Part shown: one piece after another, positions 11,149-29,154 of the stretch | Layout: each line of letters begins with the position of its first letter | How positions within the stretch are numbered: the stretch's first letter is position 1 | From: Deltaproteobacteria bacterium RBG_16_49_23 | Lineage (GTDB): Bacteria > Desulfobacterota > BSN033 > UBA1163 | DNA: 36,668 bases | Direction: 5' to 3' | Assembly (NCBI GenBank): GCA_001798855.1 | Contig: MGQQ01000073.1 | Coordinates: forward strand, 1 to 36,668 | The notes under the pieces: generated by a model | The model's database searches: none | Told to the model about the DNA's origin: nothing | The model's input: the letters and a program-made list of their open reading frames with translations, nothing else | Translations under genes and position numbers: made by a program

Positions 11149-11159
11149 TATCAACCCGT

Positions 11160-13701: not shown

Positions 13702-13841
13702 AAAACCTCCTGTTTTTTGATATAAGGTTTGAGGATCGCTTCGCTTGAGGTTCCTGCCGCAGGGGCAAATGACTTTAGCCTTATACCTCAAGCCCCGTGA
13801 AACGGGGCGTTCTTCCTGCCTTGATCGTCATCTTACCTAAC
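13702..13841 (-). promoter_or_regulatory. Structured leader of the aminotransferase operon
   Basis: About 140 bases separate the operator from the start. They contain a perfect GCCCCGT-GAA-ACGGGGC hairpin (13792-13808), an inverted pair CTTGAGGT (13744-13751) / ACCTCAAG (13785-13792) enclosing CCTGC-CGCAGG, and TATAAGG (13721-13727) which can pair with CCTTATA (13779-13785) only if the second stem opens. This may be a regulatory leader or simply a dispersed repeat. Confidence 0.45.
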
Positions 13842-13859
13842 TACCTATCTATACAGGTA
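13842..13859. promoter_or_regulatory. Regulon operator A (aminotransferase-aldolase operon)
   Basis: TACCTATCTATACAGGTA is an 18-bp palindrome matching the copies at 18334, 20526 and 27242. It overlaps the -10 region of the minus-strand promoter. Confidence 0.85.
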
Positions 13860-13882
13860 ACAAGGATAAAATATTTTGTCAA
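13854..13882 (-). promoter_or_regulatory. Promoter of the aminotransferase-aldolase operon
   Basis: On the minus strand, TTGACA (13882-13877) is followed 17 bp later by TACCTG (13859-13854), which lies within the operator. The weak -10 suggests dependence on release or activation by the regulator. Confidence 0.6.
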
Positions 13883-13935
13883 GATTTTTTTAAGGGAAGC
13901 TCTACCGTCTTTTGTGTGGGATCTACATTACCGAT

Positions 13936-14060
13936 CGCCCTGAGGCTCTCGAAGCCTGTAGTGAGCGTGTCGAACTGGGTGAAACATTGAACCGTTCATG
14001 CTTCGACAAGCCCGTCCTGAGCAAACCGTTTACCCTTCGACAGGCTCAGGGCGAACGGAT
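13936..14060. repeat. CTTCGACAGGCTCAGGG palindromic repeat cluster
   Basis: Several arms (CCCTGAGGCTCTCGAAG, GCTTCGACAAGCCCGTCCTGAGC, CTTCGACAGGCTCAGGGCGAA, the last two written here in shortened form at 13999 and 14036) form nested imperfect palindromes between gntR and the aminotransferase operon. The family also occurs at 2833-2891. Confidence 0.7.
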
Positions 14061-14084
14061 TTGGTCATTTCTTGGGAACTCTCC

Positions 14085-14846
14085 CTACTCTTTCAGATCG
14101 TACCGGTATCTCCCCGATTCCACCTCGAAGATATATTTATCCCCCCGGTGGAAGGCATGGAGGACCTCCACGGGAATGTTCTTTGAGTCGTAAATGACGC
14201 TTTCGAGAAAGATGCCCGGAGAGCGGGGAGGGACTCCCAACAACCTGGCATCCTCATTGGAGAAGAGCATGGCACGGAAGGTCTGGATCGACCGGTGGAG
14301 CGCCACATGGAACTTCCGGGTCAGGAGATGGTAGAGGGAACCGGTCAGTCGCATCTTTAAAATGGCTTTGTACTCCTTATAGGGAAGGTAGCTCCGCTCA
14401 ATGACGAGGGGGATGCGGTTTCCGAACCGGAGCCGCTCGGTGAGGATGACCAGTCTCTCCTTTCCCAGCATCAGCTTCTCCGCCACATCAGCGGGCGCTT
14501 CGACCACGGACTTGCTGATGAGCCTGTTCTGCGGGGAAACCCCCATGTGAATCATATCATCCGTAAAGCTGGAGATGTGCTGAAGGGTATATTTGACAGG
14601 CTGGACAGCCCGGCCGATGACAAAGGATCCCACGCCGTTCCTCTTCTGGACGATCCCTTTGGTCACCAGATCGGAGATGGCCTGACGGACCGTGTTCCGG
14701 TTGACCCGGAAAAGTTCCGCTAATTTCGACTCCGAAGGCAGTTTATCGTTCACCGCATACCGGCCCTTCTGGATCATCTCCATCAGCCAGTGGCTGATCT
14801 GCAAATACTTGGGAACTCCCGGATCAAGATGTAATGTCTCTGCCAT
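14085..14846 (-). CDS. GntR-family (HutC/UTRA type) transcriptional regulator
   Basis: The 253-residue protein has an N-terminal GntR winged helix (about 11-78; KLPSESKLAELFRVNRNTV, RQAISDLVTKGIVQKRNGVG) and a C-terminal UTRA effector domain (about 95-245), ending in EVLHAFHRGDKYIFEVESGR typical of HutC/PhnF-type regulators. HutC-type proteins bind palindromes of the form GTCTATAC, which matches the core of the operators found at four promoters here, so it is the natural candidate regulator of the whole locus (inference). The effector is probably the transported substrate or a phosphorylated product. ATG at 14846 is preceded by AGGAAAGAGAG. It lies downstream of the permease gene after 256 bp of repeat DNA. 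Confidence 0.88.
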   Translation of the reverse strand: MAETLHLDPGVPKYLQISHWLMEMIQKGRYAVNDKLPSESKLAELFRVNRNTVRQAISDLVTKGIVQKRNGVGSFVIGRAVQPVKYTLQHISSFTDDMIHMGVSPQNRLISKSVVEAPADVAEKLMLGKERLVILTERLRFGNRIPLVIERSYLPYKEYKAILKMRLTGSLYHLLTRKFHVALHRSIQTFRAMLFSNEDARLLGVPPRSPGIFLESVIYDSKNIPVEVLHAFHRGDKYIFEVESGRYRYDLKE

Positions 14847-14879
14847 AACTCTCTTTCCTTAATGGATCCTTTCTTTCTT

Positions 14880-15040
14880 TCTTTCTCCCCTTTCTTAAAG
14901 GGGAGGTGAGGAGGGGTTATGGATTACCTTTATCGCCAGGCAGTAAAAGTCTAACCCCCCTTCGTCCCCCCCTTAAACTAAGGGGGGAATAGAAGGGGGT
15001 TACAATAGGGGGATATACCCACATAAAAGCCGGAAACCAA
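14880..15040. repeat. Direct repeat X1 flanking the ATPase-permease module
   Basis: The segment reads CTCCCCTTTCTTAAAGGGGA...GGTTATGGATTACCTTTATC...AACCCCCCTTCGTCCCCC... GGGGGATATACCCACA...AAAAGCCGGA. The same order of blocks is found at 18517-18952 (X2), interrupted there by two insertions. Both copies lie downstream of a transporter gene stop on the minus strand. Confidence 0.8.
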
Positions 15041-15102
15041 AATATTTCTCCAAACGGATATAGGTGAAACGGTCCGTTTATGCATCCATTCAACTACAAG
15101 GC

Positions 15103-16869
15103 TCACCTCGATGTGACCATTCCGGCCAACCCGGACCTGCCGGTCGCCAGGCGCATGACCAGGAGCGCTCCGATCACAATGGCCACCACAACCGTGCACA
15201 TCGCATTGGCGCTGGCCGTCCGGCCGTCCACATCCAGGAAGATGATTTCGATGGCCGCAAGTTTGATCGTTGCGGAGATGAGAAAGATCACCGCGCTGAT
15301 TGTTGTCATGGCCCTCATGAAGAAGAAGGTGGCGGTGGAGAGGAAGGCCACCCTCGACAGGGGAAAAATAACCTTCGTAAACGTGGAGACAGGCCCGGAG
15401 CCCAGGCTGACGGCCGCCTCTTCGATCGATTTGTCGATCTGTTTCAGATTGGCGATGCTGGTCAGCACCCCCAGGGTGAAATTGCAGATGACGATATTGA
15501 TGATGATGATCCAGATCGTCCCGTAGATAAAAAAGTAGGGCTTGTTAAAAGCCAGCACGTATCCCAGCCCCATCACCACCCCGGGGATGGCCGCCGGCAA
15601 AACACTCAGCGTATAGAGGATCTGCTCTCCCTTCGGCTTCTTCTTCTCGATGATATAGCCTGCGAGGAGGGTCAGGGAGGCGCCGGCAATGGCGACGACG
15701 ATGGCAACCAGAAGGCTGGTCCAGATGGGAGCATATTTGTAAGCGATCATCGTCCGAAACGCCCCCTCGGGCAGAGCCGAAATCCAGAAACTTGTCCAGA
15801 GAGGGGCATGAGCTCCCAGCGAAGGAAAGTCGAAATGTTTGAGGGTCAGTGAAAAATCGTAAGGCCAGGTCTTGACAAAAGACCCCAGGAAGACCGTCGC
15901 AAAAACGAGAAGGATACAGAGGCAGATCAATCCGCAATAAATCGTAAACCCCCATTTCTTAAGAGGCCGGGAGGGCTGCAGAAAAGGCCTTGCCTGACCG
16001 CTGATCAGGGCGTAACTCTTCCTCGTCAGATAATAGTTGAGGACAAAGGCTCCGATGGAGGGACCGAGGAGGATGACGCTGATCGTGGCTCCCAAATCGA
16101 AGCGTTGAAGCCCGAAGACCTGCGAGACAATCTCGGTCGCAAGCACTGAATAATTCCCGCCGATCACCACGGGGATGCCGAAATCGGTGATGGTGAGGTT
16201 GAAGGTCAGCGCGGCGGCGCTTGCAATTCCATACTTCGCCGAAGGGAGCGTCACCTTCCAGAAAGTCTTCAGGGCCGAGGCCCCCAGGCTTTGGGCCGCC
16301 TCATCCAACCGGGTGTCTACCGCGGAGAGAGTGGTGTAGAGAATGAAGAGGGCATTGGGAAAGCAGTAGAGGCATTCCCCGACGATGATCCCTGTGGCTC
16401 CATAGATGTTCCAGTTTGTGCCCAGGAGATAACGGGTGATCAAACCGTTTCTGCCGAAGAGGAGGATGAGAGCCAGGGCTTGAATGATCGTCGGAGCGAT
16501 GAGAGGAAAGGTCGAAATGGAATAGAAGACCCCCTTGCCCGGCATCGTCGTCCGGGTCAATCCATAGGCAAAGAAAAAGGCGGTCACCGTGGTGATGATC
16601 ATCGTGAGGAGGGAAATATAGATGCTGTTGGTAAACGACCTGAAGATCCTCGGACTCGAAAAATAGGCCACATAGTTTTCGAAGGTAAGGGCCCCTTCTT
16701 TTAAAAAACTGAGCCGGCAGATATCTACCACCGGATAGAGAAGAAAAAAAACAAGAACGGCCAGGAAGAACGCAGAGGCCACTCCTGTGATAAATCTGTC
16801 CGGGCTGAAGGCAAGCGATGAAAAGAAGGATGAAACGGGGTGCGAACGATCCATCTCAGGTCGGTTCAT
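15103..16869 (-). CDS. ABC transporter permease, duplicated (PhnU2/AepW-like, 2-aminoethylphosphonate type)
   Basis: A 588-residue inner-membrane protein made of two fused permease halves, each with about six membrane segments. Each half has an EAA-type loop for ATPase contact: DEAAQSLGASALKTFWKVTL in the first and EEAAVSLGSGPVSTFTKVIF in the second. This double-permease architecture belongs to the iron(III)/2-aminoethylphosphonate importer group, including the PhnU2 family. It overlaps the ATPase gene by ATGA and completes an importer with the substrate-binding protein at 19009. Family membership is confident; the phosphonate substrate is inferred mainly from the binding protein and context, with ferric iron or another anion as the alternative. 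Confidence 0.85.
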   Translation of the reverse strand: MNRPEMDRSHPVSSFFSSLAFSPDRFITGVASAFFLAVLVFFLLYPVVDICRLSFLKEGALTFENYVAYFSSPRIFRSFTNSIYISLLTMIITTVTAFFFAYGLTRTTMPGKGVFYSISTFPLIAPTIIQALALILLFGRNGLITRYLLGTNWNIYGATGIIVGECLYCFPNALFILYTTLSAVDTRLDEAAQSLGASALKTFWKVTLPSAKYGIASAAALTFNLTITDFGIPVVIGGNYSVLATEIVSQVFGLQRFDLGATISVILLGPSIGAFVLNYYLTRKSYALISGQARPFLQPSRPLKKWGFTIYCGLICLCILLVFATVFLGSFVKTWPYDFSLTLKHFDFPSLGAHAPLWTSFWISALPEGAFRTMIAYKYAPIWTSLLVAIVVAIAGASLTLLAGYIIEKKKPKGEQILYTLSVLPAAIPGVVMGLGYVLAFNKPYFFIYGTIWIIIINIVICNFTLGVLTSIANLKQIDKSIEEAAVSLGSGPVSTFTKVIFPLSRVAFLSTATFFFMRAMTTISAVIFLISATIKLAAIEIIFLDVDGRTASANAMCTVVVAIVIGALLVMRLATGRSGLAGMVTSR

Positions 16870-17948
16870 GCCGCACCTTCTTCCGGATAGACGAGAAAAC
16901 TTTCCGGAGGGAAATAGAGGAGGATCTCATCGCCCTGTTTGAATCCCCTCTGCTCAAACGCCTTCTCGATCACATCCGAGATCACTTCCTCTCCATCGAT
17001 ATTGACGACCAATCGAACCGCCGCTCCCAGAAAGGTGACCACATCGATTCTCCCGGGGATCAGGTTGGAGAGGACCAGATGGTGTGTCGGCTCTCCGGGT
17101 CTGAAGACCTCGATCTTCTCCGGTCGGATGGCGAGGACCACTTTCTCACGAAAGGACGAGCCTGTTTGAGCAACCGCAAATTCCCATTGTTCGGTCTGGA
17201 CGCGATCCTCTGTGCGCAAGCCCTTAAAAAAGTTGGAGGTCCCCACAAAATCCGCAACAAAATCGGAGTTCGGGCACTTATAAATGTCGATGGGCTTCCC
17301 CACCTGCCGGAACTGCCCTTTCTCCATCACGACCACTCGATCGGCAATCGAAAGCGCTTCCTCCTGATCATGGGTGACATAGATCATTGTCTTCTTCAAT
17401 TCCTGTTGCAATCGTTTGATCTCCGCCCGTAGACGAACCCTGATCTTGGCATCGAGTGCGCTCAAGGGTTCATCCAAAAGCAGGACCTGGGGATTGGGCG
17501 CCAAAGCCCGAACCAGGGCGATTCTCTGCTGCTGGCCTCCGCTTAACTGGGCCGGGAAGAGCCTTCTCCAGTCCCGAAGCCCGACGAGGTCCAGCATCTG
17601 ATCGACCCTCTGGGCGATGGCCTGTTTATTCACCTTTCTCATCTTCAGGCCGAAGGCGATATTCTCCTCCACCGTCATATTCGGAAAGAGAGCATAAGAT
17701 TGAAAAACGATTCCGAATTCCCTCTTCTTGGGGATGAGATGATTGATCGCCTTTCCATCGAAGAAGATCTTTCCCTCTGTAACAGTCTCAAAACCGGTGA
17801 TCATCCTGAGGACGGTGGTCTTCCCGCAGCCGCTCGGCCCGAGGAAACAGATAAATTCACCCTCTTCGATCTCCAGATTGACCTGGTCCACGGCAGTCAG
17901 CGTTCCGTAGCGCTTGGTGAGATTCTCCAGTCTGAGGTTTCTGCTCAT
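16866..17948 (-). CDS. ABC transporter ATPase (PhnT2/AepV-like)
   Basis: A 360-residue importer ATPase. Walker A GPSGCGKT (37-44), Q-loop in VFQSYALFP, signature LSGGQQQR (135-142), Walker B LLLDEP (156-161) and the switch histidine in YVTHDQEEAL are all present. A C-terminal TOBE-like domain (about 245-355) follows, as in the CUT1/iron(III)/aminoethylphosphonate ATPases. ATG at 17948 follows GGCAGGATG. It heads the ATPase-permease operon, whose promoter and operator B lie some 390 bases upstream, leaving a long leader of repeats. Confidence 0.9.
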   Translation of the reverse strand: MSRNLRLENLTKRYGTLTAVDQVNLEIEEGEFICFLGPSGCGKTTVLRMITGFETVTEGKIFFDGKAINHLIPKKREFGIVFQSYALFPNMTVEENIAFGLKMRKVNKQAIAQRVDQMLDLVGLRDWRRLFPAQLSGGQQQRIALVRALAPNPQVLLLDEPLSALDAKIRVRLRAEIKRLQQELKKTMIYVTHDQEEALSIADRVVVMEKGQFRQVGKPIDIYKCPNSDFVADFVGTSNFFKGLRTEDRVQTEQWEFAVAQTGSSFREKVVLAIRPEKIEVFRPGEPTHHLVLSNLIPGRIDVVTFLGAAVRLVVNIDGEEVISDVIEKAFEQRGFKQGDEILLYFPPESFLVYPEEGAA

Positions 17949-18333
17949 CTTTTCATCCTGCCTTTAGAAAAATTCTTTTCCTTTATTCCCCCCCCTGGCC
18001 TCGCCAAGGGGAAACCGAAAGCAAGCTGGCGAGAGGGGGGAGTGATTTTAATTTTAAGGTAATTGCCCATGGCCGGTAGGCCACTCACAAACCATAAAAA
18101 TCCCCCTCAGTCCCCCTTTTTCAAAGGGGGATAATTACACCTCCCTTTGGTCTCCGACCCAGCCTCCGGCTCAGAAGAGCCTCTGGCTCGGAGAGAGCGG
18201 TCTCTGACCCGGAGGGCAAAGGGAGGCGGCCTGCCTGCGCGAAGCCCCGCCTCCAGAAGCCTTGCGGAGGGCAGGCGCTTCGGCGAAGGCAGGGGAGGGA
18301 TTTTAAGAAGCTATTTTCTAACTAAAACCTGAT
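17949..18333. repeat. Long repeat-rich leader between promoter B and the ATPase gene
   Basis: The interval holds CCCCCCCTGGCCTCGCCAAG... GGCGAGAGGGGGG (about 17989-18041), a CCCCCTCAGTCCCCC / AAAGGGGGAT palindrome (18100-18131), a CCTCCGGCTCAGAAGAGCC / CTCTGGCTCGGAG hairpin (about 18164-18195) and a copy of the GGCGAAGGCAGG family (18229-18297). No gene is supported. These are probably inserted elements that lengthened the leader. Confidence 0.65.
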
Positions 18334-18351
18334 TACCTGTCTATAAAGGTT
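18334..18351. promoter_or_regulatory. Regulon operator B (ATPase-permease operon)
   Basis: TACCTGTCTATAAAGGTT matches the 18-bp regulon palindrome with one arm slightly decayed. It abuts the minus-strand -10 box (TAAAAA, 18355-18350). Confidence 0.8.
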
Positions 18352-18378
18352 TTTAATCAAATTTAAAAAATATGTCAA
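18350..18378 (-). promoter_or_regulatory. Promoter of the ATPase-permease operon
   Basis: On the minus strand TTGACA (18378-18373) is followed after 17 bp by TAAAAA (18355-18350). The operator begins within the last two bases of the -10. Confidence 0.7.
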
Positions 18379-18474
18379 CCCTGTGGAGTATAAAACATAA
18401 CAAACACCATGTATCCAATTCCGTTCTTATGATCCTCCCCCACATTAGGCTATGAATGGATTACTCCACAGGGT
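18378..18474. repeat. 13-bp inverted repeat upstream of promoter B
   Basis: ACCCTGTGGAGTA (18378-18390) and its exact reverse complement TACTCCACAGGGT (18462-18474) flank 71 bp of AT-rich sequence. The left arm adjoins the -35 box. It may be a small mobile element or a second regulator site. Confidence 0.65.
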
Positions 18475-18960
18475 CAACAAAAAAGGGCATCCGGTTTTTT
18501 AATGGGTCCTGCCTTTATCTCTCCCCTTTGCTAAAGGGGAGGTAAGGAGGGGTTATGGGTTACCTTTATCGTCGGACAGTAAGAATTTACACCCCGTCCG
18601 GGACTTCGCCCGGAAGTCGGTAAAACCCGACCACGGGAGGTTGCCCCTTCGGGGCAGTTATTCCCTGGTAGCCGCAACCTTTAGGTTGCGTTTCAGGGTC
18701 GGTATTACATTGGAGGCCGATACGCAGGCTAATTCCGCCCTTGGCGGGACTGCGGCTACCAGTTGATTTTAACAAATCATCGACAATCTTTTGTCGATAT
18801 TGATTCCCTAAGGGCCTAACCCCCCTTCATCCCCCCCAATCTAACGCCCCCTCCTCTCTCCCCCTCTTAAATAAGAGGGGGAAGGGGGAGTTATTAAGGG
18901 GGGAATAGAGGGGGGGTACAAGAGGGGGATATACCCACACAAAAGCCGGAAGAAGCAACA
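18475..18960. repeat. Direct repeat X2 with nested insertions
   Basis: Blocks shared with X1 (14880-15040) occur in the same order at 18517-18592 and 18817-18952. They are interrupted by about 225 bp (18593-18816, a GTAGCCGCAACC... GGTTGCG and GCGGCTACCAG palindrome) and about 57 bp (18839-18895, CTCCCCCTCTTAAATAAGAG...). A copy of CAACAAAAAAGGGCATCC at 18475-18492 also occurs at 18956-18973 in the terminator arm. No gene is present. Confidence 0.75.
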
Positions 18961-18993
18961 AAAAAGGGCATCCCGCATTTGCAGGATGCCCTT
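18960..18993 (-). terminator. Rho-independent terminator of the substrate-binding protein gene
   Basis: Stem GGGCATCC (18966-18973) / GGATGCCC (18984-18991), extended by A:T pairs, is followed on the minus strand by six or more T. It lies 16 bases beyond the stop codon, so the binding-protein transcript is separate from the ATPase-permease operon. Confidence 0.85.
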
Positions 18994-19008
18994 CGAGGAA
19001 CTGCCCTT

Positions 19009-20019
19009 TCATTTCATGAAGAGGGTCTCCCATTTTTTCAGGATCTCATCCCGGTTCTTTGCCTGCCAGGCAAAGTCCATGGGATAAAGTTTAATCTCAG
19101 ATAATTTGGGCAGGTCAGGGCGTGTTGGAATGCCGGGTAGGGTCACTCCATATTTAAATTTGGAATATTCCTTCATTGCGCCTTCGCTGATGGCCCAATC
19201 CAGGAATTTCTTGGCTGCTCCCGCATTCTTTGCTCCTTTAAGGAGGGCATTGGCCTCCACCTCGTAGCCCGCCCCTTCGATCGGGAAAACGAATTCAACC
19301 GGGAATCCCTGTTTTTTCTGTTCTGCAACCACAAAGTCGAAAGAAGCGCCCACCGCAAACTCTCCGGATGCCGTCATCTTGGCAGGCCTTGATCCGCTCT
19401 TGATATATTGGCCCATATTTTTATCCAGTTTTTTCAAAAATTCCCAGCCGTCCTCCTTCCCTTCTTTGGCCCCATACATCTGGAGGATGCTTGAAATCTG
19501 CAGAAACCCCGTTCCCGAGGCAGCTGGATTTGGCATGGCGATCAACCCTTTAAATTTCGGATCGAGCAGGTCGTTCCACCCCTTGGGCATCGGGAGTCCT
19601 TTTTCCTTCATGACCTTGGTGTTGACACAGAAGGCGGCAATATACATATCGATGCCGACATAACTAAATCCGGGATGGACGAATTTCTTGTCTAATTTCT
19701 CAACCCCCTTCGGCTTATAGGGTTCCACCATTCCTTTTGTGACGAAGTCTTCCAAATTGGTCACGGCCCATCCCCAGATGAGATCGGCCTGGGGGTTGGC
19801 CCTCTCCGCCAACATTCTGGCGCCGAGTTCTCCTGTGGAAAGCCGGATGATATGGATTTCAAGATCCGGAAGATCCTTGAGATAGGCTTCCCGGTACTTA
19901 TCAATTTCATCCGTCTCTAACGAGGTATAGACCACCACTTTGTCCTTGGCCAACGCGCTTCCTGAAAGAAAGGCCACCATTAAAAAACCGACTATCAATG
20001 CCCACCATTTTCTCTTCAT
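19009..20019 (-). CDS. ABC transporter substrate-binding protein (AepX/PhnS2-like, 2-aminoethylphosphonate type)
   Basis: A periplasmic binding protein of 336 residues. The signal peptide is MKRKWWALIVGFLMVAFLSG plus SALA, with cleavage expected before KDKVVVYTSLETDE. The sequence resembles the putative 2-aminoethylphosphonate binding proteins (PhnS2/AepX) and the wider iron(III)-binding FbpA group: LERANPQADL-like ERANPQADLIWGWA, then KGWNDLLDPKFKGLIAMPNP and ASGTGFLQISSIL, a conserved anion-binding region. ATG at 20019 is preceded by AAGGAGG; an earlier in-frame start would put a charged stretch before the signal peptide. It has its own terminator. Ligand identity is inferred from family resemblance, not shown. 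Confidence 0.85.
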   Translation of the reverse strand: MKRKWWALIVGFLMVAFLSGSALAKDKVVVYTSLETDEIDKYREAYLKDLPDLEIHIIRLSTGELGARMLAERANPQADLIWGWAVTNLEDFVTKGMVEPYKPKGVEKLDKKFVHPGFSYVGIDMYIAAFCVNTKVMKEKGLPMPKGWNDLLDPKFKGLIAMPNPAASGTGFLQISSILQMYGAKEGKEDGWEFLKKLDKNMGQYIKSGSRPAKMTASGEFAVGASFDFVVAEQKKQGFPVEFVFPIEGAGYEVEANALLKGAKNAGAAKKFLDWAISEGAMKEYSKFKYGVTLPGIPTRPDLPKLSEIKLYPMDFAWQAKNRDEILKKWETLFMK

Positions 20020-20049
20020 ACGCTTAACCTCCTTCTTTATTTGCATCAT

Positions 20050-20250
20050 TTCGTTTAATAACCTCCATCAATCATTTAGGGGAACCTCTAATAATTCCCA
20101 ATTTGTCACTCCCGCGAAAGCGGGAGTCCAGTAATGTCAAAAACTTGCGAATTCCTGCTTTCGCAGAAGGAATGACATTTTTTGAGGTACCCTTAAGATT
20201 TAGATATTTCACCTCCCCTCTTCTATTGGTTTTACTTTTTAACGACTCAT
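20050..20250. repeat. Upstream region of the binding protein with an inverted palindrome
   Basis: At about 20105-20180 CACTCCCGCGAAAGCGGGAG and TTCCTGCTTTCGCAG...GGAATGACATT form a large imperfect palindrome of a type widespread as a mobile repeat. No gene is present. Confidence 0.6.
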
Positions 20251-20268
20251 TAAATATATAGATACTTA
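20251..20268. promoter_or_regulatory. Possible degenerate operator E (binding protein gene)
   Basis: On the minus strand TAAGTATCTATATATTTA matches the regulon palindrome (TACCTGTCTATAYAGGTA) at the central TCTATA, the flanking purine/pyrimidine and the outer TA pairs, but not at the CC/GG positions. The AT-rich setting makes chance likely enough to keep confidence low. Confidence 0.35.
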
Positions 20269-20309
20269 CATATTGAATTCTGAGAATTTATCTTTAACAT
20301 TTTAGAGAT

Positions 20310-20425
20310 ACCCTCCAGATCTCTCCCCTCCCCTGGAGGGAGGGGATGAAGGGGAGGGGGAACTAAATTTACTCACCCCCACCCTCACCCTCCCCCGTCA
20401 AGGGGGAGGGAATTAAACTGGAGAA
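20310..20425. repeat. Two G/C-run palindromes
   Basis: CTCCCCTCCCCTGGAGGGAG (about 20321) and CACCCTCCCCCGTCAAGGGG (about 20389) are neighbouring hairpin repeats of the CCCTC...GAGGG families seen throughout the intergenic DNA. Confidence 0.6.
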
Positions 20426-20500
20426 ATTTCAAATATCTTTGAATATAACTTTATATCGAAACCGAATATTTTTGTCAATCTTTTTCCTTCCCGAAAAGGA

Positions 20501-20529
20501 TTGACAAAACTCCCTTTTTCAATTAGTCC
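20501..20529 (+). promoter_or_regulatory. Promoter of the FAD/GcvT dehydrogenase gene
   Basis: TTGACA (20501-20506), 17 bp, then TAGTCC (20524-20529), a poor -10 that overlaps the operator. The geometry repeats that of operators A and D. Confidence 0.6.
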
Positions 20530-20543
20530 TGTCTACATAGGTA
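20526..20543. promoter_or_regulatory. Regulon operator C (FAD/GcvT dehydrogenase gene)
   Basis: GTCCTGTCTACATAGGTA, an 18-bp copy of the regulon palindrome, differing from the consensus at the first three bases and otherwise close. Confidence 0.8.
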
Positions 20544-20548
20544 GGTAA

Positions 20549-20633
20549 CCCCCCTCTGTCCCCCCTTAAATTAAGGGGGGATAAAGGGGGGTTATGTCTT
20601 TCTGACACTGACACTTACACTGACACTGAACTG
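20549..20633. repeat. CCCCCCT...AGGGGGG palindrome and TGACAC cluster in the leader
   Basis: CCCCCCTCTGTCCCCCCTTA and AAATTAAGGGGGGATAAAGG with GGGTT form a palindrome (20549-20594), followed by ACTGACACTTACACTGACAC (20605-20624), a member of the TGACAC cluster family. Both lie between operator C and the gene. Confidence 0.6.
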
Positions 20634-20648
20634 CAGAGGAGATGAAAC

Positions 20649-23066
20649 ATGAAAGATCAGGCTCGGGTGGTCATTATTGGAGGCGGTATTACAGGATGCA
20701 GCATAGCATACCACCTTACTCAAATGGGATGCGAGGATGTGATTGTTATTGATAAAGGGGAGCTCACCAGTGGCGCCACCTTCCATGCCGCAGGCCTGGT
20801 CGGCCAACTCCGGGCATCCGTCAACATCACCAGGATGTTGAAATACAGCGTTGAGCTTTACTCGCGCCTGGAAGAAGAGACAGGACAACATACGGCATGG
20901 AGTGCCGTTGGGGGCCTCCGGATCGCCTTGTCAAAAGATCGCATGGAGGAGTTGCGTCGCTCCGCCGCTATGGCCAAAACCTTCGGATTGCCCATGGAGC
21001 TGATCAGTCCGAAAGAGGCATGGGACCTCTTCCCAGTGATGGAGAAGAAAGGCATTGTTGGAGCCGCTTTTCTCCCTACGGATGGCCAGATCGACCCCAG
21101 TGGCGTCACGTATGCCCTTGCTCAAGGAGCCCGGAATAGAGGGGCGACAATCTATACCGATACCCGTGTCACAGGGATCAAGCTGAAGAATGGAGCCGTT
21201 GAGGAAGTCTTAACAGAAAAGGGAAATATAAAAACGGAAATCGTAGTGAACGCCGCTGGAATCTGGGCGCCCAAGATAGGAGAAATGGTAGGCGTCGCTA
21301 TTCCTCTCATCCCCATGGAGCACCAATATATCATCACCAAGCCCATCAAGGGGGTAAAGAAAGGAATGCCCACGATGCGGGACCCCGACCTTCTTGTCTA
21401 TTTCCGCGAGGAGGTGGGCGGACTTATGATGGGAGGCTATGAACATAATCCGATTCCCTGGGCGCTTGACGGAATTCCGCGAGACTTCACCAAAACACTG
21501 CTAAAATCCAACTATGAACATTTCGAACCTCTCTCTGTTCTGGCAATGAAGAGAGTCCCTTCCATTGGCAACGCTGAAATTGTCACCCTCCTCAATGGCC
21601 CCGAGGCTTTCACTTCGGATGGGGATTTCATCATGGGCGAGGCCGCAGAGGTGAAAAACTTCTTCATTGCGGCAGGTTTCTGCGCCCATGGAATTGCTGC
21701 CGCAGGAGGAGTGGGCAAAATGATGGCCGAGTGGATCATCGAGGGAGAACCCAGCCTTGACCTGTGGCGTCTCGATATTCGGCGTCTCGGAGCACATCAT
21801 AGAAGTCAGCCCTATACCATCAAAAGAGCGACCGAAGTCTATGCCCATCACTATTCCATGAGCTGGCCCTATGAAGAAATGGCTTCGGCAAGACCTCTTC
21901 GAACAAGCCCCCTTTACTCCCTTTTAAAAAAGAGGGGCGCGGTCTTCGGAGAGAAATATGGCTGGGAACGGCCAAACTGGTTTGCCCCAAAAGGGGTGGC
22001 GCCGAAAGATAAGTTGACATGGGGGCTCCCAAACTGGTTCGAGTATGTTGCAAAAGAACATGAAGCCGTGAGGACAAAGGCAGCCCTGATTGACCAGACC
22101 TCGTTCGGAAAGATCGAGATCAAGGGGAAAGGGTCATTATCGCTTCTTCAAAAAATGACCGACAATCAGATGGACAAGCCCATCGGCTCAACCACCTATA
22201 CCCAAATGCTGAACGAAAAAGGAGGAATTGAGTGTGATCTCACGGTGACCCGGTTAGCTGAAGAACAGTTCTATCTGGTAACAGGAACAGCATTTATTAA
22301 ACACGATCTGAGCTGGATCCGGAAACATCTTCCCACGGATGGCTCTATCTCGGTCGCGGATGTCACCTCTTCTAATGCCTGCATCACCCTTTGCGGCCCT
22401 GAATCCCGTAATATCCTCAACCGGCTGATCGGAGAGGATCTCTCCAATCAGGGATTCCCCTATATGGCCTGCAAGGAGATTACCCTGGGGTGCGCTCCTG
22501 CCCTTGCCCTCCGTATCACCTATGTGGGTGAACTCGGATATGAACTCCATATACCCATCGAATATGCTCTTTATGTATATGAAGCCCTGTGGGAGGCAGG
22601 AAACCCTTTCGGCTTAATCAATGCAGGTTACCGTTGCGTCGATTCCCTCCGACTGGAGAAAGGATACAGATACTGGAGTGGAGATATCTCTCCTGAATAT
22701 ACCCCTTTTGAAGCAGGCCTCGATTTCTGCGTGCGGTTAGATAAGGGAGATTTTATCGGCCGCAAAGTTTTATTAACTCAGAAAGAAAAAGGCTTAACCA
22801 GAAAGCTCTGCTGTCTGACCGTCGATTCAGGCCCATTGATGCCCGTGGGTAAGGAGGCCATCCTCGAAGGAGATAAAGTGGTTGGCATTGTCACCAGCGG
22901 AGGATATGGACATACAATTAAGAAACCCATAGCTTATGGATATCTGCCCATCGATTATTCAAAACCCGGAATCCGGTTGCAAATCGAAGTGGCTGCCAAA
23001 CGGTACGAAGCCACCGTCGAAAAAGAACCGCTCTACGACCCGGAAAATCTGAAGGTAAGAGGTTAA
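20649..23066 (+). CDS. FAD-dependent dimethylglycine/sarcosine dehydrogenase-like enzyme with GcvT domains
   Basis: The 805-residue protein has an N-terminal DAO-type FAD domain: GGGITG (11-16), then LTSGATFHAAGLVGQ with His46 at the position covalently flavinylated in dimethylglycine dehydrogenase. A FAO-type linker domain (about 370-430) precedes a folate-binding GcvT domain and C-terminal barrel (about 440-805; YTQMLNEKGGIECDLTVTR, GELGYELHIP). Such enzymes oxidise N-methyl amines and pass the one-carbon unit to tetrahydrofolate. ATG at 20649 follows GAGGAGATG. Operator C puts it in the importer regulon, suggesting that the imported compound, or a derivative, is N-methylated. The true substrate could be another secondary amine. 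Confidence 0.87.
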   Translation: MKDQARVVIIGGGITGCSIAYHLTQMGCEDVIVIDKGELTSGATFHAAGLVGQLRASVNITRMLKYSVELYSRLEEETGQHTAWSAVGGLRIALSKDRMEELRRSAAMAKTFGLPMELISPKEAWDLFPVMEKKGIVGAAFLPTDGQIDPSGVTYALAQGARNRGATIYTDTRVTGIKLKNGAVEEVLTEKGNIKTEIVVNAAGIWAPKIGEMVGVAIPLIPMEHQYIITKPIKGVKKGMPTMRDPDLLVYFREEVGGLMMGGYEHNPIPWALDGIPRDFTKTLLKSNYEHFEPLSVLAMKRVPSIGNAEIVTLLNGPEAFTSDGDFIMGEAAEVKNFFIAAGFCAHGIAAAGGVGKMMAEWIIEGEPSLDLWRLDIRRLGAHHRSQPYTIKRATEVYAHHYSMSWPYEEMASARPLRTSPLYSLLKKRGAVFGEKYGWERPNWFAPKGVAPKDKLTWGLPNWFEYVAKEHEAVRTKAALIDQTSFGKIEIKGKGSLSLLQKMTDNQMDKPIGSTTYTQMLNEKGGIECDLTVTRLAEEQFYLVTGTAFIKHDLSWIRKHLPTDGSISVADVTSSNACITLCGPESRNILNRLIGEDLSNQGFPYMACKEITLGCAPALALRITYVGELGYELHIPIEYALYVYEALWEAGNPFGLINAGYRCVDSLRLEKGYRYWSGDISPEYTPFEAGLDFCVRLDKGDFIGRKVLLTQKEKGLTRKLCCLTVDSGPLMPVGKEAILEGDKVVGIVTSGGYGHTIKKPIAYGYLPIDYSKPGIRLQIEVAAKRYEATVEKEPLYDPENLKVRG

Positions 23067-23072
23067 GTCCAT

Positions 23073-23100
23073 GTAGGGGCAATTCATGAATTGCCCCTAC
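23073..23100. terminator. Perfect 28-bp palindrome between convergent genes
   Basis: GTAGGGGCAATTCA and its exact complement TGAATTGCCCCTAC are joined without a loop base. It stands between the FAD enzyme (plus) and the HAD gene (minus), fit for two-way termination. It is also the shape of a common mobile repeat. Confidence 0.75.
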
Positions 23101-23123
23101 GGAGCCCCCAGAAAATCCTGTAT

Positions 23124-23879
23124 TTAGTAAAATTTCAGTTCCCGGATCGATTTGACGACGAGGTCTGCCACCTTTTCCAATTCCTCCCTTGGAGTTACCC
23201 CTCCCTCGAGAATCCCGATGGTCAGCGCCACGCCGGCGCTCTTTCCCATCGTCATGTCCGTTATTGAATCTCCCACCATCACAGCCTCTTGGGGAGGGAC
23301 AGAGAGCTTCCGGCAAATAGTAAGAATGGTTTCGGGGTGAGGTTTGGCCGGGGTTACTTCTCCTGAACAGAGGATTAAATCAAATAATTTATCCATGCCA
23401 AGATGATGGAGAATGGCTTCCGTGTCTTTTCGCTCGTCATTCGTTGCCAGAGCCGTATAGAACCCGCTCCCTTTCAGATGGGAGAGGAAAGACTGAACGC
23501 CTTTGATTGGGACAACATTCTGTCGCCAATCACCATCTGAGTCAGCCTCGTCAAAAGCCTGGGCTACCCACTGCTTCGATTCATCCCAATGATATCCATT
23601 CTGGTAAAGCGCCATCGTGCCGATGATGATCTCATCGGACCGGGGTGAGACAGGACAGGGCCCTCTCGGATCGACTTTTCCGCTAACAGGATCGATTCCC
23701 CAGGATCTCAAAAGGAAGGCCTCCAATTCTCCATTCTTCCCCAATCGTTTTAAAAGGAAGGAAACCCGCTTTCGAATCAAAGGGACCCATGTTGCTGAAA
23801 AGTCGATCAGTGTTCCGTCCTTGTCAAAGATGATCAAACGGCAGGGGATGCGTTTCCCTTGATATTCAATCCCTGTCAT
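23124..23879 (-). CDS. HAD-superfamily hydrolase (phosphoglycolate phosphatase-like)
   Basis: A 251-residue HAD phosphatase. Motif I FDKDGTLID (nucleophile Asp), motif II ALATND, motif III lysine in AKPHPETI and motif IV MVGDSITDMTMG are all intact. The large cap (about 35-105) resembles subfamily IA phosphoglycolate phosphatases. It would hydrolyse a small phosphate ester in the cytoplasm. In this setting it may remove phosphate from an intermediate of the pathway, or act on phosphonoacetaldehyde-like compounds, but the catalytic Lys signature of true phosphonatase (PhnX) is not recognisable. ATG at 23879 follows GGAGG. It converges on the FAD gene; no operator copy is seen upstream. Confidence 0.85.
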   Translation of the reverse strand: MTGIEYQGKRIPCRLIIFDKDGTLIDFSATWVPLIRKRVSFLLKRLGKNGELEAFLLRSWGIDPVSGKVDPRGPCPVSPRSDEIIIGTMALYQNGYHWDESKQWVAQAFDEADSDGDWRQNVVPIKGVQSFLSHLKGSGFYTALATNDERKDTEAILHHLGMDKLFDLILCSGEVTPAKPHPETILTICRKLSVPPQEAVMVGDSITDMTMGKSAGVALTIGILEGGVTPREELEKVADLVVKSIRELKFY

Positions 23880-23959
23880 TTATAATATCCTCCATCAATG
23901 AAACATATCTTAAAAGAGGCTTGCAATGAATTCAATTCATATTATAAAGTAATCTGCCA

Positions 23960-24115
23960 TAATAGTTTCGTCACCTGCTGCCTGTCGCAGGCAGACATAA
24001 ACCGGTAAAATACGCCCCTCACCCTAACCCTCTCCCGCCCGGGGAGAGGGAGATTATTTAAGGAGCCTTTTTGATAACCCCTCCCCCTTTGACGGGGGAG
24101 GGTGAGGGTGGGGGT
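23960..24115. repeat. Intergenic repeats before the transketolase-like gene
   Basis: TGCCTG-TCG-CAGGCA (about 23980), a CTCACCCTAACCCTCTCCC / GGGGAGAGGG palindrome (24018-24050) and CCCCTCCCCCTTTGACGG / GGGAGGGTGAGGGTGGGG (24078-24113). No regulon operator is found in this interval. Confidence 0.6.
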
Positions 24116-24146
24116 GAAAAGGATTAACAATATTATGGAGGTGAAA

Positions 24147-26078
24147 ATGGACGGAAAAAGATTTGGGGCTGAAAGACTCGACGAATCTACTCTTTTAAGA
24201 TTGACCGAACTCTCAAAACTGGCGAGAGGCGATATCTTGAAGATGACGACTCTGGCCGGCTCCGGACATCCCGGAGGATCGATGTCATCCATTGACTTCT
24301 ATCTTGTCCTCTACTCCTTTGCCAATGTTTCCCCCCGGTCTCCTCATGATCCAAACCGGGACAGGATTGTGATCAGCCATGGCCACACTTCTCCCGGTGT
24401 TTACGCCGCTCTGGGCAGAATCGGTTTTTTTCCGATCGATGCGGCCATTGCCAATTTCAGAAAGGCAGGGTCTGCCTTTGAGGGACACGTGGAGAAAGGA
24501 GTGCCGGGAGTCGAATGGAACACCGGCAACTTAGGACAGGGCCTTTCAGCCGGATGCGGGTTCGCTCTCGCAGGGAAGTTATTGAAAAGGGAATCCCGTG
24601 TTTTTGTCACAATGGGCTGCGGGGAACAGCAGAAAGGACAGATTTCAGAGGCCAGGAGATTTGCAATCAAATATGATCTCAATAATCTGACTGTCATCAT
24701 CGACTACAATTGCAGACAGATTAGCGGAGTGACCCAGGAGATCATGCCGCAGAATATTATCAAAAATTTTGAATCGGATGGATGGCATGTCCTTGAGGTG
24801 AATGGCCACGAATTTCAGGAGATCTATGGAGCCCTTCGCAAGGCTGCCCTCTCCCCGCATCCCACCATGATCCTTGCCCACACCATCATGGGAAAAGGAG
24901 TCTCTTTTATGGAAGGGAAAGAGGAGTTTCACGGAAGGGGCCTTAATCTCGAAGAGTATAAAAAGGCCGTTCTGGAATTGGGCGTCGAAGAGAATCTGGA
25001 CAGTTATCGCCAGATGCGTCAAAAAAGTGAATCTCCCTACTCACCCCCAAAATATCCGGTTGAGATCCCTTCTGTTCAAACAGGAAATCCAAGAACGTAT
25101 GAAAAGGACCAGAAGCTGGATAACCGGTCCGCCTTTGGAAATGCCCTGGTTGATCTTGGCAAAGCCAACCTAAGGAACGACGGCTCTCTTCCGATCGCTG
25201 TCTTTGATTGTGATTTGGCTCCTTCAACGAAGACCACGGCCTTCGCCAGGCAATTTCCAGACTATTTTTTCCAGGGCGGAATCCAGGAGCATAACACGGC
25301 AACGATCGCAGGAGCCGTTTCGACCGTCAACCTCCTTTCCTTCTTTGCCGATTTCGGAGTGTTCGGGATCGATGAGACTTATAATCAGCACCGTCTGAAT
25401 GATATCAATGGAACCAACCTCAAACTCATCTGCACCCACGTAGGCCTGGATGTCGGGGAGGATGGAAATACTCACCAATGCATCGACTATGTCGGTGTGA
25501 TCCGAAACCTCTTCGGATATAAAGTCATCATTCCTGCAGATCCGAATCAGACTGATCGTGTGATTCGATATGTGGCCAGGACCCCGGGGAATTTTCTTGT
25601 GGCCATGGGACGCTCCCCGATCCCGATCATTCTCTCCGAAGAGGGGAGCCCTTACTTCGGTGCTTCTTATGAGTTTCGATATGGTCAGGCCGACCTTCTC
25701 CGGAAGGGGAAGGATGCGACCGTCATCACCGCCGGAGGCATGGTCTATCGGGCCATCCGGGCCTGGGAGATATTGAAGGAAAAAGGGATTGAAGTTCAGA
25801 TACTGAATCTCTCATGCTTCAGTGATCTCGATACCGAAGCCATCATGAGATCCGCCAGGACAGGGACGATCATTACCTATGAAGATCATCATGTCCAAAC
25901 CGGCCTGGGAAGTCTTGTCGGGAATGTTCTGGCAGAGCATGGCTTGCCCATTCGTTTCCGGAAGATGGGGATCACCCGGTATGGCAGCTCCGGGAAACCC
26001 GACGACCTCTACCGTATGCAGGAGCTCGATGTGGATAGCCTTGTGAAAACAGTGATGGATGAGGTTAATGGAATATAA
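24147..26078 (+). CDS. Transketolase-like enzyme with altered ThDP motif
   Basis: A 643-residue single-chain transketolase homologue. From the chosen start, SGHPGG (39-44), HGH (78-80), the pyrimidine-binding region with QEHN (380-383; E381 as activating Glu) and GEDGNTHQ (437-444) are recognisable. The ThDP/Mg motif, normally GDGE, reads GCGE at 157-160, Cys for the metal-ligand Asp, while the later Asn in DYNCRQ (186-191) is kept. The ATG at 24147 follows GGAGGTGA; the longer frame to 24102 starts inside a palindromic repeat. It could transfer a two-carbon unit in the pathway served by the transaldolase-type enzyme. The motif change leaves actual activity uncertain. Confidence 0.82.
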   Translation: MDGKRFGAERLDESTLLRLTELSKLARGDILKMTTLAGSGHPGGSMSSIDFYLVLYSFANVSPRSPHDPNRDRIVISHGHTSPGVYAALGRIGFFPIDAAIANFRKAGSAFEGHVEKGVPGVEWNTGNLGQGLSAGCGFALAGKLLKRESRVFVTMGCGEQQKGQISEARRFAIKYDLNNLTVIIDYNCRQISGVTQEIMPQNIIKNFESDGWHVLEVNGHEFQEIYGALRKAALSPHPTMILAHTIMGKGVSFMEGKEEFHGRGLNLEEYKKAVLELGVEENLDSYRQMRQKSESPYSPPKYPVEIPSVQTGNPRTYEKDQKLDNRSAFGNALVDLGKANLRNDGSLPIAVFDCDLAPSTKTTAFARQFPDYFFQGGIQEHNTATIAGAVSTVNLLSFFADFGVFGIDETYNQHRLNDINGTNLKLICTHVGLDVGEDGNTHQCIDYVGVIRNLFGYKVIIPADPNQTDRVIRYVARTPGNFLVAMGRSPIPIILSEEGSPYFGASYEFRYGQADLLRKGKDATVITAGGMVYRAIRAWEILKEKGIEVQILNLSCFSDLDTEAIMRSARTGTIITYEDHHVQTGLGSLVGNVLAEHGLPIRFRKMGITRYGSSGKPDDLYRMQELDVDSLVKTVMDEVNGI

Positions 26079-26170
26079 TTTCAAATTGTAAATTGAAAAT
26101 TGAAAAATTCAAAATTAGGTCAAGAACAAATTGATCATTTTCCAGTTTACATTTTGCATTTTGCAGTGAA
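26079..26170. repeat. AT-rich imperfect inverted repeat
   Basis: TCAAATTGTAAATTGAAAAT at 26080 and related complementary TTTACATTTTGCATTTTGCA at 26147 form a weak long hairpin between the transketolase-like gene and the second HAD gene. Confidence 0.5.
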
Positions 26171-27205
26171 ATGGTGCCCATGATGGATCTTCTCATCTTC
26201 GATATGGATGGTGTCCTCATCGATGTTTCGCGGTCCTATCGCAAGACCATTCAGCAGACCATTCATATCTATCTCCAGGACTGCTTGGGGATGAAGTCAA
26301 CTTTAGTATCCTCTGAGGAGATCTCTCTCTTTAAATCGGTAGGGGGGTTCAATAACGATTGGGATCTGACCGCGGGGTTCCTTCTCTATCTTCTCTCCGT
26401 TTCAAAAATCCCTCCCCTTCCAAAGCAGAAGAAACTTTCTTCTCTTGATGAAATTGTACTTTATCTCCGGCAACATTTATCCAATTTTTATCAGAGAAGG
26501 CCCCTTGGCCTCAAAAGGAATCTCTTCTCCTCATTCTTAGAACAGGTCAAAGCCTCGGGAGGAGGATTGAGGGGGGTTCGGTCTGTTCTTGGAGGCTCGT
26601 GGGCTAATTGGATATATCGGTCCGGAGACCTCGAAAAAGAGAACCTCGTAAAAAGGATCTTCCAGGAGATTTATTTGGGCGAGAAGTTTTCGCCTCACTA
26701 TCATCTTCAGCCTCTCTTTTATAGGGGAAAGGGGTTATACCTCAGGGAAAAGCTTTTGATTGAAAGAGAAATCCTTGCGTCCCTTCGGAAAAAGGTGAGA
26801 TTGGGGATTGCCAGCGGCCGTCCAAGATTCGAAGCGGAACTGGCCCTGAAGCGGTTCCGGATCCTTCACTATTTCGATAGTGTGGTCACCCTCGATGAAT
26901 GCGAAACAGAAGAGGCTAGCCTTCTTAAGGTTTCAAAAAAAGAGATGAAACTCACCAAACCCCACCCCTTTTCCATTCTTAAGGTCATCGAAGAAATAGG
27001 CATTCCCAATCCCCGATGCGGATATATTGGTGATGTAGTGGACGATATGAAGGCTGCACAAGCCGCAAAAAAAAAATTCCCCATGCTGGCGATCGGCTTT
27101 CTCCGATCAGGAAAAACAGAACCCGTGATGATGGAAGCGTTGCTCCGAGCCGGGGCAGACTGCATCATTAAAAACCCGAAGGAGTTACTCCAGCTTGCCG
27201 GCTGA
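26171..27205 (+). CDS. HAD-superfamily subfamily IA hydrolase with large cap
   Basis: The 344-residue protein opens MVPMMDLLIFDMDGVLIDVS: motif I DMDGVL with the nucleophile Asp. Motif II is IASGRP, motif III a lysine in KLTKPHPFSIL, and motif IV GYIGDVVDDMKAA. A cap of about 190 residues separates motifs I and II, longer than usual. The opening DVSRSYRKTIQQT resembles the small HAD clade known in cyanobacteria and archaea (as I recall, TIGR01548), in which some members are joined to histidine-pathway genes. A HisC-like aminotransferase is encoded in this locus, which makes that link notable. The start may be 26171, 26180 or 26183. It lies 92 bp after the transketolase-like gene, probably in one transcript. 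Confidence 0.78.
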   Translation: MVPMMDLLIFDMDGVLIDVSRSYRKTIQQTIHIYLQDCLGMKSTLVSSEEISLFKSVGGFNNDWDLTAGFLLYLLSVSKIPPLPKQKKLSSLDEIVLYLRQHLSNFYQRRPLGLKRNLFSSFLEQVKASGGGLRGVRSVLGGSWANWIYRSGDLEKENLVKRIFQEIYLGEKFSPHYHLQPLFYRGKGLYLREKLLIEREILASLRKKVRLGIASGRPRFEAELALKRFRILHYFDSVVTLDECETEEASLLKVSKKEMKLTKPHPFSILKVIEEIGIPNPRCGYIGDVVDDMKAAQAAKKKFPMLAIGFLRSGKTEPVMMEALLRAGADCIIKNPKELLQLAG

Positions 27206-27215
27206 AGATTAAATA

Positions 27216-27244
27216 TTGACAAGCCTCATTATTTCCTTTATAAC
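27216..27244 (+). promoter_or_regulatory. Promoter of the PiT gene
   Basis: TTGACA (27216-27221), 17-bp spacer, TATAAC (27239-27244): the strongest promoter of the regulon. The operator starts inside the -10. Confidence 0.8.
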
Positions 27245-27259
27245 CTGTCTACACAGGTA
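27242..27259. promoter_or_regulatory. Regulon operator D (PiT gene)
   Basis: AACCTGTCTACACAGGTA contains ACCTGTctacACAGGT, the most regular copy of the 18-bp regulon palindrome. It would block the -10 and transcription start when bound. Confidence 0.88.
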
Positions 27260-27278
27260 GTTAGCTTAAATCGGAGGG

Positions 27279-28524: not shown

Positions 28525-29154
28525 ATGGTATTCGATTTCCTCAGAAGAAAGAAGTCCTTTTCAGGCAGTGAGAATCGTTTCTTCGATCTGCTCTCCCGTC
28601 AATCCTTAAAGAGCATCGAGGGGCTGGACGCCCTCTGGAACTTCGCTGAAAACGGGAGCATGGAGAATGCCAATCTCGTCCGGAATATTGAACGGGAAGC
28701 GGATGAGCTGAGACGGATTTTGATCCAGGAGTTGGATCAGACTTTTATCACGCCCATAGACCGGGAGGATATCTTTGACCTCTCCCGTGCTATTGACGAT
28801 GTGGTGGACTATGCGAATACGACCGTGGATGAAATGGAGATTTATGAGGTTAAGGGAGACCATCATATCAAAGAGATGGTCAACATCCTCCGTAAGGCCA
28901 CCCGGGAATTATATGATGCGGTCAAAATCCTGAAAGATTATCCCAAAATCGCCTCAGAGCATGCGGTCAAAACCAAAGCGTATGAAAACCAAATAGAAAA
29001 GGCCTATCACATGGCGTTGGCTGACCTCTTTAAAGGAACAGACACAGTCTATATGCTGAAGATGCGGGAGATCTACCGCCACCTCAGCAATGCGGCCGAC
29101 CGGGGAGATGAAGCCGCCAACATCATCTCCAGCATCGTCATGAAACACACTTAA
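28525..29154 (+). CDS. DUF47 family PhoU-like PiT accessory protein
   Basis: The 209-residue protein is all helical and begins MVFDFLRRKKSFSGSENRFF, with FITPIDREDIFDLSRAIDD and DYANTTVDEM, the conserved metal-coordinating signature of the DUF47/TIGR00153 group. Such proteins are encoded next to PiT transporters and are thought to regulate or partner them. Here it follows pit, interrupted by the 195-bp element. ATG at 28525 is preceded by AAAGGAGCAAAATC. It would act at the cytoplasmic face of the membrane. Confidence 0.92.
   Translation: MVFDFLRRKKSFSGSENRFFDLLSRQSLKSIEGLDALWNFAENGSMENANLVRNIEREADELRRILIQELDQTFITPIDREDIFDLSRAIDDVVDYANTTVDEMEIYEVKGDHHIKEMVNILRKATRELYDAVKILKDYPKIASEHAVKTKAYENQIEKAYHMALADLFKGTDTVYMLKMREIYRHLSNAADRGDEAANIISSIVMKHT

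Follow-up and report, generated by a model that had tools for sequence, protein, structure and literature searches.

Among described GntR-family regulators with a UTRA domain, NagR and DasR (operator dre) are the closest solved relatives, by sequence, of the protein treated here. Their operators place two half-sites around a 6-nucleotide (nt) centre, and they serve several operons of one catabolic pathway (for NagR, excerpts of PMC4333415). PhnF is a HutC-type regulator encoded next to an ATP-binding cassette (ABC) importer and phosphorus genes, and in M. smegmatis it represses a phosphate ABC importer (excerpts of PMC7866108). PhnS2-PhnT2-PhnU2, a three-part importer, is putatively assigned to 2-aminoethylphosphonate uptake. 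We analysed the whole 36,668-nt contig MGQQ01000073.1 of Deltaproteobacteria bacterium RBG_16_49_23 (here the window), in which four promoters share a palindromic motif and a gene for a HutC-type GntR protein lies among them at 14085-14846 (minus strand). With a probability of roughly 0.87, judged from sequence, this protein binds the palindrome and represses the four promoters, which would serve an uptake and breakdown pathway and a PiT-PhoU pair. The arrangement resembles NagR and DasR in its two half-sites and in the several operons of one pathway; unlike theirs, its targets include no amino-sugar genes by the models applied. It resembles PhnF in the adjoining importer and phosphorus genes, whereas no C-P lyase gene was seen among the 20 window proteins scanned. 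The importer is of the same three-part type as PhnS2-PhnT2-PhnU2, but all three components score under the curated cut-offs and the aminotransferase is HisC-like; no phosphonoacetaldehyde hydrolase model exceeded its cut-off among the window proteins scanned.

A preliminary description of the window had reported four copies of an 18-bp palindrome at 13842, 18334, 20526 and 27242, and all four 18-mers are present exactly as written. Operator 1 (13842-13859, minus strand) lies in the aminotransferase promoter, with a gap of 18 nt between the TTGACA at 13877-13882 (minus strand) and the 16-mer core. Operator 2 (18334-18351, minus strand) lies in the promoter of the ATPase-permease-GntR operon, 22 nt from the TTGACA at 18373-18378 (minus strand), and operator 3 (20526-20543, plus strand) in that of a dimethylglycine dehydrogenase-like FAD/GcvT flavoprotein, 20 nt from the TTGACA at 20501-20506. 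Operator 4 (27242-27259, plus strand) belongs to the PiT-PhoU promoter, 21 nt from the TTGACA at 27216-27221. As claimed, every site is accompanied on its gene's strand by an exact TTGACA; it lies 18-22 nt upstream. The motif is indeed shared, with a consensus of about ACCTGTMTAYANAGGT in which ACCT/AGGT arms flank a HutC-type core, GTNTANAC, but the palindrome is imperfect, being self-complementary at 6, 6, 5 and 7 of 8 core positions in operators 1 to 4. The further claim that each operator lies over a -10 box 17 bp from the TTGACA held in part: the hexamer 17 nt past TTGACA is a good or fair match to TATAAT at the ATPase (TAAAAA, 18350-18355, 4/6) and PiT (TATAAC, 27239-27244, 5/6) promoters and a weak one at the aminotransferase (TACCTG, 13854-13859, 2/6) and FAD/GcvT (TAGTCC, 20524-20529, 2/6) promoters. 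Counted downstream from the -35 element, the operator centre is reached after 26-30 nt, so that the operator covers the -10 hexamer and the start of transcription.

The window was searched with the 16-base core pattern ACCTGTCTAYANAGGT at up to 3 mismatches and compared with 100 dinucleotide shuffles. It held 9 matches, corresponding to six places with both strands matching at three, while the shuffles gave a mean of 0.64 matches and a largest value of 3, so that none of the 100 reached 9. The preliminary description had also proposed scanning the complete genome with the consensus, copies scattered at random being what would speak against a regulon. In the host assembly (3.83 Mb, 171 contigs, 93% complete) the only matches at up to 1 mismatch were the four window sites, and the regulon reading stands; this uniqueness is partly circular because the consensus was built from those same sites. 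At 2 mismatches there were 16 matches, including two opposite strands of the four sites and one further window place (14925). Genome matches elsewhere at 2-3 mismatches were rejected, as the reversed control has more of them. Since the genome count is partly circular, the genomes of relatives provide the independent test of the motif.

For this comparison 23 genomes of the class were used, the window's own included; they span three families, and the relatives are named as Deltaproteobacteria, Thermodesulfobacteriota or Syntrophaceae. The window proteins were mapped onto 40 genomic stretches and core matches with up to 2 mismatches were listed without regard to TTGACA, opposite-strand matches of one palindrome being counted once. 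This yielded 40 site rows (4 from the window and 36 others), or 39 distinct sites, one site of genome G010 lying on two overlapping contig ends. The sites precede the same operons as in the window, namely aminotransferase (operator 1 has counterparts in 13 genomes, the window's own and G001 included), ATPase, flavoprotein and PiT, with PhoU instead of PiT in G013 and G016. An exact TTGACA stands 18-23 nt upstream in 40 of 40 rows, with a gap that depends on the operon: 18 nt for aminotransferase (19 in one case), 21-23 for ATPase, 20 for flavoprotein, 21-22 for PiT and 20 for PhoU. Because the gap varies by operon while the palindrome stays, the palindrome is best read as an operator and not as part of the promoter.

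A composite pattern, TTGACA-N(17,24)-CCTNTNTANANAGGT, gave 37 matches in 12 of the 23 genomes, against 0 for the reversed pattern and about 0.07 expected under uniform chance in 78.6 Mb, in agreement with the earlier judgement that chance was unlikely. Of these matches, 35 directly precede orthologues of the target genes; the other two (G003 contig C175 and the duplicate G010 contig C181) are next to GntR where the contig breaks off, at the expected place of the aminotransferase. The short 15-base pattern had 21 exact matches in the 23 genomes, all at target operons. Sites that the strict pattern misses are present as diverged versions with an unchanged spacing to TTGACA, before the flavoprotein in G016 and G010 and before the ATPase and PiT in G001. 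In G008 and G011 the operator is kept although PiT lies on a contig other than that of the regulator, at least 12 kb from the contig ends; the G011 flavoprotein is also on another contig, which an assembly break may explain. Phylogenetic footprinting supports the claim that one regulon lies behind the four promoters: the same motif precedes orthologous operons and is absent without the regulator, with the exceptions given below.

The regulator itself (14085-14846) carries an N-terminal GntR winged helix (Pfam, 69 bits) and a C-terminal UTRA domain (109 bits), both over their gathering scores, which places it in the GntR/HutC subfamily. Among NCBIfam models it scored highest with the LSA1692 subfamily (130.9 bits, cut-off 275) and next with PhnF (TIGR02325; 122.5 bits, cut-off 156.8), under the cut-off in both cases. 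It was the single UTRA match in the host genome at E 0.001. Orthologues of at least 77% identity occur in 13 of the 23 genomes, and 12 of these genomes match the strict composite pattern; in the thirteenth, G001, three diverged sites follow a TTGACA at a distance of 18-21 nt. The other ten genomes have no strict match: six lack a regulator match at E 1e-30 (one of the six, G022, carries a fragment where a contig ends), and in the remaining four, G018-G021, the orthologues are 53-69% identical. Within g4, a sister genus, G013 and G016 have both regulator and sites and G012, G014 and G015 have neither, a split that ancestry alone does not explain.

Related motifs accompany more distant orthologues. 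In families f2 and f3, two genomes have a related palindrome before the regulator or the aminotransferase with TTGACA upstream, TATTGTATAGACAGGT in G018 and AGGTGTATAGACAGCT in G021; none was found in the scanned stretches of G017, G019, G020 and G022. Five loci further away (three Desulfobacteraceae, one Desulfobacterales and UASB270) encode GntR proteins of 44-48% identity, and TGTATATACATCTA occurs six times across all five, ahead of genes for the regulator, the importer, alanine dehydrogenase or the aldolase, with TTGACA 16 nt upstream of two of the sites. Two of these loci, L176 and L179, appear to be close relatives of each other and do not count as independent cases.

The residues expected to contact DNA were compared with the motif. 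In the NagR-DNA structure, Arg38 reads G at -5, Arg48 reads G at -4 and Gly69 touches G at -7 (excerpts of PMC4333415). After subtraction of three tag residues, the alignment places Ser40, Arg50 and Gly71 of the window protein at these positions. T stands at -5 in 39 of 39 sites, and G at -4 in at least one half of 38, in both halves of 12 and in one half of 26. In a set of 389 HutC regulators, arginine at the first contact place goes with G/C and avoids A/T (excerpts of PMC4494728). Set against T at -5 and G at -4, Ser40 and Arg50 together with these statistics indicate that protein and palindrome fit. The consensus likewise fits the HutC operator form NyGTMTAKACNy, with GT and AC 4 nt apart (excerpts of PMC4494728), but G is found in both halves only at the 12 sites mentioned. 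Whereas dre has the half-site GTGG, read by Arg38 and Arg48, the half-site here is CCTG and the residues Ser40 and Arg50; of the pair of base-reading arginines in the NagR/DasR group the first is replaced, and the GTGG half-sites of that group are absent. The preliminary description had named the GntR protein at 14085 as the candidate binder. That proposal gains support from its being the sole UTRA protein, from the co-occurrence, from the fitting contact residues and from the palindromes of distant orthologues, and we regard the protein and this palindrome form as a well-supported predicted regulator-operator pair.

A candidate third half-site, AGGT (13835-13838, minus strand), lies on the gene side of operator 1, 4 nt past the core. 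Its counterparts are at 18327-18330 (AGGT, minus strand) and 27263-27266 (AGCT, plus strand), and the one at operator 3 is poor. Over the 39 sites, the 4 bases starting 4 nt past the core match AGGT at a mean of 3.05 of 4, compared with 2.28 directly after the core, 1.82 at the upstream mirror place and 0.3-1.3 at the other offsets tried. Three operons show the signal clearly and the flavoprotein operon shows it poorly, and it could instead come from conservation of the transcript start. Weak additional half-sites next to GntR operators were described by Suvorova et al. (excerpts of PMC4494728).

Several observations weigh against the reading as a GntR-repressed regulon. At up to 2 mismatches, and with the regulator present, no operator was found before the ATPase of G008, before the PiT genes of G013 and G016 (second copies too) or before the distant PiT of G004. 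Regulator-less G002 has, in stretch L160, a 3-mismatch match 21 nt past a TTGACA upstream of PiT, perhaps a relic. Sites at the same operon do not count as independent evidence when the genomes are related, and the ATPase site of G007 (1 of 39) lacks G at -4 in either half. Summed over the 23 genomes, the short 15-base pattern gave 58 matches at up to 1 mismatch against 43 for its reversed control, which means that many single short-motif matches at that laxity are due to chance, also in regulator-less genomes; in the host genome at up to 3 mismatches the reversed control even exceeded the pattern (398 against 213). The transporter models all stay under their curated cut-offs. Two further points, the conservation of the outer arms and the poor -10 hexamers, bear on particular alternatives. 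At up to 2 mismatches the PiT genes of G002, G012, G014 and G015, none of which has a regulator match, also lack an operator, as do the second PiT copies of G012 and G015.

The most conserved positions are the outer CCT/AGG, which are nearly invariant and not fully accounted for by the NagR contacts. Since these arms are better conserved than the G of the HutC core, the sites might form a real regulon bound by another transcription factor, with the GntR gene as a neighbour. This is improbable: the genome has one UTRA protein, sites and regulator co-occur and are jointly absent from three g4 genomes, the core has the HutC form and fits Arg50 and Ser40, and a related palindrome is found at distant orthologues. 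Slightly less probable again is that the GntR protein binds the operators and activates transcription. Two of the four promoters (aminotransferase and FAD/GcvT) combine a perfect -35 with a poor -10 hexamer, as activated promoters may, and those of relatives do likewise; yet the site centre lies where a dimer should block, the distance from TTGACA varies by operon (18, 22, 20 and 21 nt), so that the site is no fixed promoter part, and the related NagR and PhnF are repressors (excerpts of PMC4333415 and PMC7866108). Chance, or membership of dispersed intergenic repeats, has in its favour the many repeats in the spacers, the 14925 match within a repeat-like stretch and the near-control level of the short motif at 1 mismatch, but is hardly credible given the 37 composite matches against none in the control, flanks that differ between operons and the TTGACA held at a set distance in every row.

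Under repression by the GntR protein, a dimer would sit over the -10 and start region and block RNA polymerase at the four promoters. From the sites, promoter geometry, conservation and co-occurrence computed above we infer binding by GntR, repression, the ligand, the order of the pathway and the direction of phosphate transport. The repressed units would be aminotransferase-transaldolase-like-alanine dehydrogenase, ATPase-permease-regulator, the dimethylglycine dehydrogenase-like flavoprotein and PiT-PhoU; the regulon would also take in the downstream transaldolase-like, permease, regulator and PhoU-like genes, and probably alanine dehydrogenase. As part of the ATPase-permease operon the regulator would repress itself. 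Of 11 relatives whose permease and GntR genes share a contig, 9 have no more than 49 nt between the two (the distance is 147 nt in G009, 256 nt in G004 and 256 nt in the window), and this short gap makes it likely that the regulator is transcribed from operator 2 and self-controlled. The repressor would be released when its UTRA domain takes up a ligand, presumably either the compound that is imported or a phosphorylated product.

The substrate-binding protein gene is set apart, and here the preliminary description needs correction: the gene has its own, operator-less promoter. By eye this consists of TTGACA at 20473-20478 and TATAAA at 20450-20455 (both minus strand; TTGACA ... TTTCGATATAA), with no operator match on it. 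All 11 relatives compared have a TTGACA 106-135 nt ahead of this gene, and in 10 of them TATAA or TATAC comes 17 nt later; the window has the same pair, further upstream. The gene is probably outside repression, though operator 3 is in the shared divergent spacer, and the substrate-binding protein may be made all the time.

Operator 1 precedes a HisC-like aminotransferase gene (12589-13791, minus strand; TIGR01141, 284 bits against a cut-off of 277), in which homology to relatives starts at the ATG at 13701. With a score above the curated HisC threshold, it may be given the wrong name by automatic annotation; we rejected it as the main histidine enzyme of the genome, which encodes a better HisC (347 bits) elsewhere. 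A transaldolase-like protein follows (11399-12592, minus strand; PF00923, 105 bits), under the cut-offs of all 9 NCBIfam models matched, and then an alanine dehydrogenase (10030-11154, minus strand; TIGR00518, 490 bits, over cut-off), which comes after the transaldolase-like gene in relatives and is probably the third gene of the operon. The importer comprises a PhnU2-like permease (15103-16869, minus strand; TIGR03262, 486 bits, cut-off 593), a PhnT2-like ATPase (16866-17948, minus strand; TIGR03265, 435 bits, cut-off 458) and the PhnS2-like substrate-binding protein (19009-20049, minus strand; TIGR03261, 343 bits, cut-off 393). The flavoprotein (20649-23066, plus strand; Pfam DAO, FAO_M, GCV_T and GCV_T_C) aligns along its full length with structures of dimethylglycine dehydrogenase and oxidase, and the alignment preserves the HAAG/HAPG, HQY and GGY/GSY stretches, which we take to hold flavin and substrate residues. 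Operator 4 precedes a PiT-type transporter gene (27279-28310, plus strand), far under cut-off with both the PitA (136 bits) and the CysP sulfate permease (74 bits) models. After it comes a PhoU-like gene of the TIGR00153 family (28525-29154, plus strand; 40 bits, cut-off 104), an order kept in several relatives. In G013 and G016 (L149:6660 and L146:6546) the operator stands directly before the PhoU-like gene, with no adjoining PiT.

Aminotransferase plus alanine dehydrogenase is a common route to deaminate with pyruvate. Downstream of the aminotransferase, the distant clusters encode a class II aldolase and a HAD phosphatase, and UASB270 has a choline/ethanolamine kinase-like gene as well; the gene row of G018 (family f2) includes an MtmB-family methylamine methyltransferase gene. 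Together with the flavoprotein, these genes point to an N-methylated amino compound that undergoes aldol cleavage and is phosphorylated or a phosphonate. The substrate would probably be an N-methylated amino compound carrying or acquiring phosphorus, demethylated onto folate and then transaminated, with alanine recycled by alanine dehydrogenase, before cleavage by the aldolase; surplus phosphate would be handled by PiT. That a catabolic regulator should control PiT-PhoU suggests phosphate release by the pathway, and if so the substrate question becomes testable. Tentatively, and with more doubt than confidence in the whole, the locus may be an anaerobic catabolic regulon not described before. 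In it a HutC-type repressor of new operator specificity (CCTG half-sites plus a gene-side third half-site) would jointly control the import of an N-methylated amino phospho- or phosphono-compound and its folate-linked N-demethylation, transamination and aldol cleavage, plus a phosphate-disposing PiT-PhoU, the binding protein alone escaping the operator as a standing scout.

The kind of switch is ordinary, but the joined gene set looks like an undescribed pathway, and no published account of it was found in open-licence papers. For an uncultured member of the Thermodesulfobacteriota the analysis supplies a predicted regulator-operator pair and a bounded gene set for a pathway. Of the 389 HutC regulators in the analysis of Suvorova et al., one was deltaproteobacterial (excerpts of PMC4494728), so the pair would extend the residue-base rules where coverage is sparse.

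Some matches were set aside. The one located at 14925 ahead of the regulator gene, with 2 or 3 mismatches depending on the pattern used, was rejected as an operator because it is weak, lies in a repeat-like stretch and falls where 9 of 11 relatives have the short permease-GntR gap noted above. A 2-mismatch match on contig C113 of G001 (L161:3309) was dropped as a flavoprotein promoter, since it lies inside an ABC-ATPase-like coding frame, and one in G017 (L158:604, 2 mismatches) was not counted, having no mapped gene nearby. For G009 the region covered upstream of the ATPase was 166 bases.

In four distant loci (L178, L180, L176 and L177) two conserved frames, of 291 and about 254 codons, come after the gene for the aminotransferase or for alanine dehydrogenase; those of L178 and L180 encode the class II aldolase and the HAD phosphatase, and L180 also has the choline/ethanolamine kinase-like gene. 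Known MtmB-family enzymes carry an in-frame UAG for pyrrolysine; the MtmB-family (monomethylamine methyltransferase) gene of G018 (L152:6895-8385, minus strand), between the transaldolase-like and HAD genes, is one open frame of 496 codons in table 11. By eye, the window spacers at 14880-15020, 18090-18300, 18500-18970 and 20300-20420 are swollen with dispersed short repeats rich in CCCCTT/AAGGGG, and at some of these places several relatives have far shorter gaps. The repeat-like stretch around 14925 recurs near 18556.

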